DNA of 34,055 nucleotides. Source: Spirulina sp. SIO3F2 (GTDB lineage Bacteria; Cyanobacteriota; Cyanobacteriia; Cyanobacteriales; Spirulinaceae). The DNA lies in the NCBI GenBank assembly GCA_010672165.1, contig JAAHHN010000055.1:1-34055 (forward strand). Reading direction: 5' to 3'. Positions 7,584-28,575 of this stretch are shown piece after piece; within the stretch, counting starts at the first letter, position 1; every line of letters starts with the position of its first letter. The notes below the pieces were generated by a model. The model did no database searches. It saw nothing but the letters and a program-made list of their open reading frames with translations, and was not told where the DNA came from. A program made the position numbers and the translations under genes.

Positions 7584-7645
7584 AATGTCTGAGTTTTTGA
7601 GTCTGAATTGTTATTGCACCATGCGTCGAAAACCAAGCATAGCAA

Positions 7646-7870
7646 TTAGCGCTCTAAGGTTTCATAGCTCTGTTGGAGTTGTTGCCACAGCAGATTAACC
7701 TGCTCATAGGCATTTTGAGTCGTAATTTTACCGTTTGTTTCTAAGCCACAAATATAGTTCACACGCTGGGCAAATGTCTGCAAATTTGCATTAAAAACCA
7801 GCTCTGAGGGAGTTAGATTACCTTGATACGAAGCATAGGGATAGAGATGGTTGTGGACTGAGTCAATCAT
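7646..7870 (-). CDS. small conserved cyanobacterial-type protein, function unknown
   Basis: 74 residues, ATG start, soluble and largely helical. The pattern YPYASYQG...PSELVFNANLQTFAQRVNYICGLETNGKI resembles a short protein that I recall as common in cyanobacteria (a DUF-type family, sometimes mis-annotated as isopropylmalate synthase-like), but I cannot assign a function. A GGGAG element lies about 17 bases upstream, far for a ribosome site. It sits between the WD40 gene (62 bases away, same strand) and the MITE-like insertion, so it could share a transcript with the WD40 gene. Confidence 0.65.
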   Translation of the reverse strand: MIDSVHNHLYPYASYQGNLTPSELVFNANLQTFAQRVNYICGLETNGKITTQNAYEQVNLLWQQLQQSYETLER

Positions 7871-8063
7871 AAGTATTGCAGATCTCCCATGATGTTTGAG
7901 TTGGATTCTGGCTTAGAGCATCGATGCAAACAAAGTGGTGAATGCATTTATAGATATCGGCATCGATAATCTCCCGTTACTATCCTAACCAACATCATCT
8001 GAGAATTCATCTAGATAAATTCTTGACCATAAAAGTAGTGATTGATTATGCCAAGATAATCTC
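7871..8063. other. intergenic stretch upstream of the 74-aa gene
   Basis: No convincing coding frame. The stretch is AT-rich and contains a short perfect palindrome GCATCGATGC near 7919-7928 and a related GGCATCGAT copy about 35 bases on. It should hold the leftward promoter of the 74-residue gene, but I could not pick out unambiguous -35/-10 boxes. The MITE-like element follows directly. Confidence 0.4.
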
Positions 8064-8070
8064 TAACATA

Positions 8071-8200
8071 ACCCAAGTTGCTAGTTACTAGTTGATTTTG
8101 TTGCCCTCGATACAAAAAATGAGTCTTCTGTATAAGATGCTGCAAGAAAATTCTCCGAAACTACTGGAATTCCTCGTTTTTGATGACTAGCAACTTGCGT
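8071..8200. mobile_element. 130-bp MITE-like element with 15-bp terminal inverted repeats
   Basis: The left end ACCCAAGTTGCTAGT (8071-8085) and the right end ACTAGCAACTTGCGT (8186-8200) are inverted repeats matching at 14 of 15 positions, including 12 bases in a row. Both ends abut a perfect 7-base direct repeat, TAACATA, at 8064-8070 and 8201-8207, as expected for a target-site duplication. The ~100-bp interior is AT-rich with no coding frame, so it would be a non-autonomous element moved by a transposase elsewhere. Ends beginning 5'-AC with a duplication of about this size recall IS982-type elements, but that family link is inference. It lies immediately downstream of the DUF4344 gene. Confidence 0.75.
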
Positions 8201-8223
8201 TAACATAGTTGCCTCTCAAGTCA

Positions 8224-9060
8224 TTACTCACCCTGCCAAAATCTCTCAAGTAGGGTAAACCAAGCCCTTGACTTCTGTTCATATTCAGCAGGACAGCGCT
8301 CGGCACGATCTTCAGGCAGCGCACCCTCTTCAATTAAGAATTCGTAGGTGTTAGGCTCACTTCCGTAAATTAGACAAGCTGTGTTGTAAAACCGTTGGGT
8401 ACTGAGGGAATGTTCACCCCAATAGGGCAAGTCTGCCAAGTTTTCCTGTTCCTCAATGGCCTCCGATTCAAACTGCCACATGCCACTAAGCAAGCCTGCT
8501 TCATCCCCGTAAATATCAATCAACATCACCGCAGCAAAATCATCCACCGCATCCTCTTCTCGCCCAGTGATCGGAAGTTCATATTGATGCACTAAGGCAT
8601 GACCCAACTCATGAAAAAACGTAAACAAGGACGCATCAATCACAGCATCATCAAAACCATCAGTCCCGTCTTCAACCCCAAAAATATAAATAAATTGCTC
8701 CAGCAGCTCATAGCACATTGTCACCTCAACATAATCAGGGTAATAAAACGCATTTACCTCACCACATTCGGTGAACGTGATTTGAATATCTTGAGGGAAG
8801 GCAAGATCTGTGTTCAGCTCATCAACGAGAGCATCAAAAAATCCATTGCTTGCCAAGGATTCATAGATGGCTTGGTGCTCAGCGATCGCGGGTGGGTCAT
8901 AGGTCAGCAGGATATCGCCGCTATCCTGGATCTTGACCACATGTGCAGCAGCGATTGAACCCAGTTCACCCCAGCCCCAGCAGGCGAGGCTTAAACCCAG
9001 GCCACCCAGCAAACGAGCGGGATAGTGAGCAAACCAAGAAGAAAAGGAAAGCTTTGCCAT
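8224..9060 (-). CDS. DUF4344-family putative zinc metallopeptidase, exported
   Basis: 278 residues. A long hydrophobic segment near residues 15-40, preceded by basic residues, suggests a signal peptide ending around IAAAH. The zinc motif HELGHALVH is at residues 150-158 (H150, E151, H154), followed by TGREEDAVDDFAAVML, whose acidic residues probably give the third metal ligand as in DUF4344 members. Four or more cysteines (C99, C116, and two near the C-terminus) could form disulfides after export. Substrate unknown. The gene stands alone; its 3' end abuts the MITE-like element, which may have replaced its original downstream sequence. Confidence 0.85.
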   Translation of the reverse strand: MAKLSFSSWFAHYPARLLGGLGLSLACWGWGELGSIAAAHVVKIQDSGDILLTYDPPAIAEHQAIYESLASNGFFDALVDELNTDLAFPQDIQITFTECGEVNAFYYPDYVEVTMCYELLEQFIYIFGVEDGTDGFDDAVIDASLFTFFHELGHALVHQYELPITGREEDAVDDFAAVMLIDIYGDEAGLLSGMWQFESEAIEEQENLADLPYWGEHSLSTQRFYNTACLIYGSEPNTYEFLIEEGALPEDRAERCPAEYEQKSRAWFTLLERFWQGE

Positions 9061-9277
9061 GAATTTTAAGATTCTGAATAGCTATTGCTTCTACGGTAAC
9101 TCAGAATTTGGCGGTCAAACATAACCTCGCAATCTGCCACAACATTCCCTAGAGGCTGTCGCCAGTTAGATTTCAAGTTCGTGATGTGACTGATTGACAG
9201 CCCCTTTGCCTGTTTTTGGATTTGGTTACTCTATTCCTTATCTCTCCAGACTCCTGGTGTTAATTGACAACGTTGTC

Positions 9278-28447: not shown

Positions 28448-28575
28448 AAAAAAGTTAACCCAAAACACTTGACAAGCTATTTTCCTGAAGTATCATGTTG
28501 GTTGAGTGTGAGGAGTAAATTTAAAGAGCGTTTAGAGTCGAAACAAGGAAAGACGTCTAAGCGCTCTTTCATCAC
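28448..28575 (-). ncRNA. candidate structured RNA with the Yfr1 core motif
   Basis: Read leftward: a very stable hairpin (arms 28569-28556 and 28536-28523, 14 pairs including one G-U, extended by three pairs across a one-base bulge), about 19 unpaired bases containing ACTCCTCACAC (28516-28506), an imperfect stem (AACC...GGTT), then six T at 28453-28448. The 11-mer equals the published ultraconserved core of the cyanobacterial sRNA Yfr1, which lies single-stranded between two stem-loops. Against this, the 5' hairpin is longer than in Yfr1, the 3' stem is weak, and no clear leftward promoter is visible. The rightward strand is an equally viable reading (see the promoter entry). Confidence 0.3.
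28469..28496 (+). promoter_or_regulatory. candidate sigma70-type promoter in the ndhA leader
   Basis: TTGACA (28469-28474), 16 bases, TATCAT (28491-28496). Predicted start is near 28503, so the transcript would begin with GTGTGAGGAGT and run straight into the 17-bp hairpin at 28523-28569, then on toward ndhA about 465 bases away. This makes either an ndhA operon leader or a short rightward RNA plausible. Confidence 0.45.

Follow-up and report, generated by a model that had tools for sequence, protein, structure and literature searches.

The insertion sequences of the IS982 family have been assigned the end consensus AC(N)6T(N)5TT and target duplications of 2–10 bp (PMC7335449, section 4), and the parts available to us of that 2020 review call their mode of transposition unknown. 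ISNsp1, a cyanobacterial member, is tabulated there at 1028 bp, with IR 16/17 and DR 6 (PMC7335449, Table 1). Miniature elements (MITEs) derived from IS982 are already known, since the accessible text on Cardinium describes MITECca01, about 240 bp long, from a genome that also contains its intact parent ISCca4 (PMC9769881). For cyanobacteria, the portions consulted report 147 MITEs, called type II, in Anabaena sp. 90 (PMC3542288), and Nezha is cited as a cyanobacterial MITE (PMC10969869, PMC3733652). Our literature search, which covered few subscription papers, found nothing that links IS982 to cyanobacterial MITEs, and the end word CAAGTTGCTAGT occurred in a single paper of the literature searched, an apparently unrelated mouse study.

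The window considered here is the whole 34,055-nucleotide stretch of contig JAAHHN010000055.1 from Spirulina sp. SIO3F2. At 8071–8200 (plus strand) it holds a non-autonomous IS982-type miniature transposon of exactly 130 bp, which has no transposase gene and lies between two exact copies of TAACATA (8064–8070 and 8201–8207, plus strand), a target duplication of the form TA-N3-TA that is common to the element family. The left terminal inverted repeat (8071–8087, plus strand), ACCCAAGTTGCTAGTTA, is identical at 17/17 positions to the ends of IS982 elements from Calothrix NIES-3974, while the right one (8184–8200), which reads ACGCAAGTTGCTAGTCA on the minus strand, agrees with the IS982 end at 15/17. 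Between themselves the ends match at 14/15 positions, the sole mismatch at position 3 being followed by 12 consecutive matching pairs. The inverted 15-base ends and exact flanks reported by the first-pass annotation are therefore confirmed at 8064–8207, and its claim that coding potential is lacking also holds, with no open reading frame of at least 80 aa overlapping 8071–8200. The G+C content of the element is 38%, against 49% for the whole window. At gathering scores, Rfam assigned no family to 8071–8200; the sole family in the window was the Cyano-1 RNA at 28502–28572 (plus strand; 58.6 bits, gathering score 41).

Compared with the IS982 family, the left end meets AC(N)6T(N)5TT fully and both ends begin with 5′-AC, whereas the right end has AC and the T at position 9 but TC instead of TT at positions 15–16, and a G at position 3. 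The 7-bp duplication lies inside the 2–10 bp given in the section of PMC7335449 cited above. Unlike the members of that family, including ISNsp1 (compared by its partial published description), the element is only 130 bp long and carries no transposase. It resembles MITECca01, as far as the accessible text portrays it, in being short, in having IS982-type inverted repeats and in lacking a transposase, and it differs in its length of 130 bp, its unrelated host and the failure to find a parental element in the genome. Like Nezha and the Anabaena sp. 90 MITEs it is a cyanobacterial miniature element with inverted ends, a likeness drawn from the available descriptions. The first 50,000 of the 56,037 bases of the Anabaena sp. 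90 plasmid pANA02 contained no end within 2 mismatches.

The element belongs to a large family. A scan of the contig collection with the pattern AGTTGCTAGT-N(90–114)-ACTAGCAACT returned at least 117 stretches; because it demands exact 10-base ends, the family counts are lower bounds, biased towards well-kept elements. Among the matches listed were 112 elements with these ends in 38 other assemblies, 37 of which are labelled cyanobacterial. From the matches listed and the Spirulina genome's own loci 126 elements were extracted, and 115, including the three own copies, were kept; the 11 dropped before any count came from other phyla, namely from 10 of the 16 loci that were set aside. Several set-aside loci carry tandem CTAGTTG-like repeats (a reading that covers neither L138 nor L143), and the tandem 7-base unit CTAGTTG / CAACTAG was seen in L049, L052, L078, L117 and similar loci, from Clostridia and other MAGs. 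One family member with an exact TATTATA duplication lies in a contig labelled as an Aquificota MAG (L079, 4662–4805), through either contamination or transfer, and was retained in the counts. Of the listed elements, 111 of 112 had flanks (one had none; the three own copies were excluded), and 79 of these 111 are bordered by exact 5–7 bp duplications, compared with 8.3% of shuffled pairings, leaving 32/111 without one. The duplications measure 5 bp in 41 elements, 6 bp in 29 and 7 bp in 9, and 71 of the 79 have TA at both ends, in the form TA-N(1–3)-TA, to which TAACATA conforms.

In Microseira wollei alone the 14-base end word occurs 722 times without a mismatch (reversed control, 0). A covariance model run on 148 relatives, own genome included, found 15 places in 11 other genomes at E 0.01, with both ends present in 15/15; at least one of these places (L283) is apparently the element already seen as L103. 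BLAST with the window element gave no match among 98 relatives at E 0.001 and none to plasmids; seven phage records matched over one and the same 27 bases at E 0.1, which was taken as chance. The interiors of some family members (L100, L091, L044, L058, L088) resemble other dispersed repeats (GATCCCCCTAAATCCCC..., TAATGGC..., GGTAATGG...), as if captured by the ends. Bases 25–102 of an Anabaena sp. 54 element (L061) match the Anabaena sp. 90 plasmid pANA02 (L298, 1001–1072) at 79.5%, in the intergenic region that separates avd from a reverse transcriptase gene of what is apparently a diversity-generating retroelement.

Full-length insertion sequences with the same ends exist. A profile search with PF13612 in 14 genomes with miniature elements matched 8 of them and returned 25 loci (L192–L216), five from Calothrix NIES-3974 with perfect ends. 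These five copies are identical over 1059/1059 bp, carry the end ACCCAAGTTGCTAGTTA at both sides and are flanked by duplications of TAATA, TACTA, TAATA, TATTA and TACTA; their protein scores 186.7 bits against NF033520 (IS982 family; cut-off 130), with IS5 as the next family at 29.4 bits (cut-off 110). Related IS982 genes with these or variant ends were found in same-order genomes and on plasmids of Sphaerospermopsis and Nostoc, and in a genome of the window genome's own family (G002) an IS982 right end alone was found. Of 24 further IS982 loci (L217–L240), ten entered the end table, the one-ended loci (L218, L219, L220, L223, L225, L226, L228, L239), duplicates (L231, L234, L235) and loci with no credible pair (L227, L230, L233) being left out. 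Among the 15 tabulated loci, which include the five Calothrix copies and some short or decayed ones, 10 have exact TA...TA duplications of 5–6 bp, the Rhodothermus locus has AGGATTT (1/15), and the remaining 4/15 have a two-base duplication or none, one of them being cut by the locus end.

The first-pass annotation had proposed, from the 5′-AC ends, mobilization by an IS982-type transposase. This proposal is supported by full-length cyanobacterial IS982 elements that share the 17-bp end exactly and show duplications of like form, and on this sequence evidence such mobilization is probable. The full-length insertion sequence sharing the ends that the annotation called for as a check was found in other genomes but not in Spirulina sp. 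SIO3F2, whose draft of 453 contigs yielded nothing with PF13612 at E up to 0.001; a search with the Calothrix transposase P0001 at E up to 1e-10 was equally negative. When full-length elements were sought by pairing ends at loci of Microseira and other genomes, the open reading frames enclosed read as host genes, and no transposase was recognized by reading. Across 148 relatives, IS982 relatives (fragments included) occur in 12 genomes and miniature elements in 12 (own genome included), with both in 4 (hypergeometric P 0.009, uncorrected for shared descent), so that IS982 matches are lacking from 8/12 genomes with miniature elements. Across the 60 BLAST rows listed, miniature elements and IS982 share mostly 20–30 bp and at most 49 bp at 78%, always at the ends; since sharing is confined to the ends in these rows, which do not include the window element, an origin by internal deletion of a known insertion sequence is unsupported.

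The best explanation, to which we give a probability of about 0.92, is that the element is a MITE in which two ends of the IS982-transposase type surround about 100 bp of unrelated filler and which was moved in trans. A DDE transposase of the IS982 family, supplied in trans, would bind both ends and release or copy the element at 5′-AC, the proposal accommodating either cut or copy chemistry. The element would then be joined across a presumably staggered cut at a TA-N(1–3)-TA target, and repair would leave the 5–7 bp duplication, here TAACATA, with the TA spacing of the target setting its length. The Spirulina genome would once have had such a transposase, since lost, or its draft may miss one. 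That transposase could instead belong to a different family, such as one that targets TA, the likeness to IS982 being secondary. This would fit the failure to find an IS982 transposase in the own genome, the single, fragmentary PF13612 match in Microseira wollei despite its hundreds of copies and the 11 PF01609 transposase-domain matches in the own genome, which are not assigned to a family. However, the 17-bp end recurs without a single difference in full-length IS982 elements, as do the TA-N-TA duplications, and the element end fits the published IS982 consensus, and we regard a transposase of another family as improbable. The 11 PF01609 matches (L009–L019), considered as a source, showed no pair of these ends at 11/15 or better.

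The two ends of the miniature elements differ systematically. Counting the matches listed and the window element (C192 and C33, the two other copies of the Spirulina genome, were left out), G occupies position 3 of exactly one end in 99 of 113 elements, of both ends in 2 and of neither in 12. With the window excluded, the one-G asymmetry holds for 98/112 listed elements and for the majority in 31 of the 38 assemblies, and it was read in 14 of the 15 covariance-model places of other genomes. The element interiors form 15 clusters without a BLAST link of at least 35 bp, and the asymmetry is the majority state in 11 of these and absent from four single-element clusters. Because it extends across the family, the mismatch between the window ends is a family trait rather than decay. 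IS982 loci mostly lack the position-3 G, which among the 15 tabulated loci occurs in Rhodothermus only, at the right end. The other exception is locus L220, in the same-order genome G092, where the 3′ terminus of a decayed IS982 gene lies at a distance of 20 bp from a G-type end, ACGTAAGTTGCTAGTTA (1481–1497), and a second end was not found. The asymmetry may have been inherited from an IS982 parent whose right end was of the G type, or the two ends may have different roles. The L220 end is a possible trace of such an asymmetric parent, and its position beside a decayed IS982 gene adds weight to plain inheritance.

In the Spirulina sp. SIO3F2 genome (a draft of 7.3 Mb in 453 contigs) two further full-length copies were found, at C192:1831–1958 and C33:1596–1722, with 79% and 78% identity. 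The three copies can be aligned end to end with a mean column identity of 86%, and a covariance model of them, run with stricter filters, found no fourth copy in the genome at E 0.01. C33, which sits between two genes that we read as similar methyltransferase-like genes, has one base pair altered in both arms (A-T to G-C) and, if its altered left end is taken as valid, is flanked on both sides by TAAAGG (6 bp); a clean target duplication is absent from C192. Several copies with differing flanks, named by the annotation as a check, do occur in the genome, the duplication being clean in the window element, 6 bp at C33 with its altered end, and not clean at C192. The suggestion that the insertion was recent fares less well, since the exact duplication alone favours it, whereas the other copies are only 79% and 78% identical and the searches of the genome for an IS982 transposase were negative. 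The diverged copies beside the exact TAACATA duplication indicate one well-preserved insertion within an old set of copies. Taken with the lack of an IS982 transposase match in the draft, they suggest that the 130-bp element is old and probably stranded at present in Spirulina sp. SIO3F2.

The insertion lies between two genes on the minus strand. The stop codon (TAA, 8224–8226) of a DUF4344 putative metallopeptidase gene (8224–9060) is 16 bp from the duplication, which agrees with the earlier placement of the insertion at the 3′ end of that gene, and on the other side the duplication starts 193 bp upstream of the ATG of a DUF7219 small protein (7646–7870). The further idea that the insertion alters the end of the metallopeptidase transcript is unsupported, because a simple scan of 7600–9200 found no terminator-like site. 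The own genome has a probable paralogue of the metallopeptidase gene (C156:9040–9682; 72% DNA identity). When 7600–9100 was compared with 59 genomes, own included (best six or fewer candidates per genome), no match spanned the site in the 58 relatives; all listed matches outside the own genome lie inside the DUF7219 or the metallopeptidase gene, and in the only other genome in which both were matched (G009) they are about 3.1 Mb apart. An empty site was found for another family member, an insertion in Brasilonema UFV-L1 (L043) that has TAATA as its target and sits at the stop codon of a gene that we read as hisA. The corresponding site is free of the element and has a single target copy in 6/6 loci read from six genomes (L251, L254–L258), as TAATA in 2 loci and TAATG in 4. 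In the Brasilonema locus, where the family member occupies 1070–1203, the target TAATA preserves the TAA stop of hisA.

Insertions near stop codons, in the window and in Brasilonema, would also suit a repeat adopted by the host (REP-like, protein-binding or an RNA hairpin) that ceased to move long ago and retains its ends for a cellular function. So would the paired A-T to G-C change in C33 and the single-stranded DNA fold of 8071–8200, which beats shuffles with a z of −2.46 (2/200 shuffles as good). Against such adoption, just three diverged copies were found in the genome, neither a terminator-like site nor an Rfam family was detected at the site, and a symmetric end change is equally expected of transposase binding sites; we consider host adoption less probable still than a transposase of another family. 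The reading of 8071–8200 as a non-autonomous transposon, already made in the first-pass annotation, is backed by the differently flanked copies, the family-wide target duplications and the empty site of a family member, and the element is a genuine non-autonomous transposon.

Four pairs of equal 7-mers spaced 40–500 bp apart in the window have inverted ends of at least 10/15, the other three scoring 10, 10 and 11, and 200 mononucleotide shuffles of the window gave 175 cases in total at that threshold. The frequency at 14/15 was derived by binomial, under which at least 14/15 is 5.4e-5 as frequent as at least 10/15. Chance inverted and direct repeats, for which the three weaker pairs might be cited, have a negligible probability: only about 5e-5 such cases are expected per window, and chance is excluded by the genome copies and by the elements of other genomes that share both ends and duplications.

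A more ambitious reading, which we put forward tentatively and think more doubtful than likely, is that the cyanobacterial IS982 miniature elements form a distinct lineage with functionally different ends (C/T versus G at position 3) and interiors exchanged for unrelated DNA, whose transposase recognizes TA on either side of the target, the spacing of which then fixes the duplication at 5, 6 or 7 bp. The MITE reading connects IS982, a named transposase family, with miniature elements that are widespread in cyanobacteria. The TA-N(1–3)-TA targets and one-G ends make the transposition mode of IS982 concretely testable. The IS982 link may also bear on cyanobacterial MITEs that have been reported without a parental insertion sequence, such as those of Anabaena sp. 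90 in the portions of PMC3542288 available to us.
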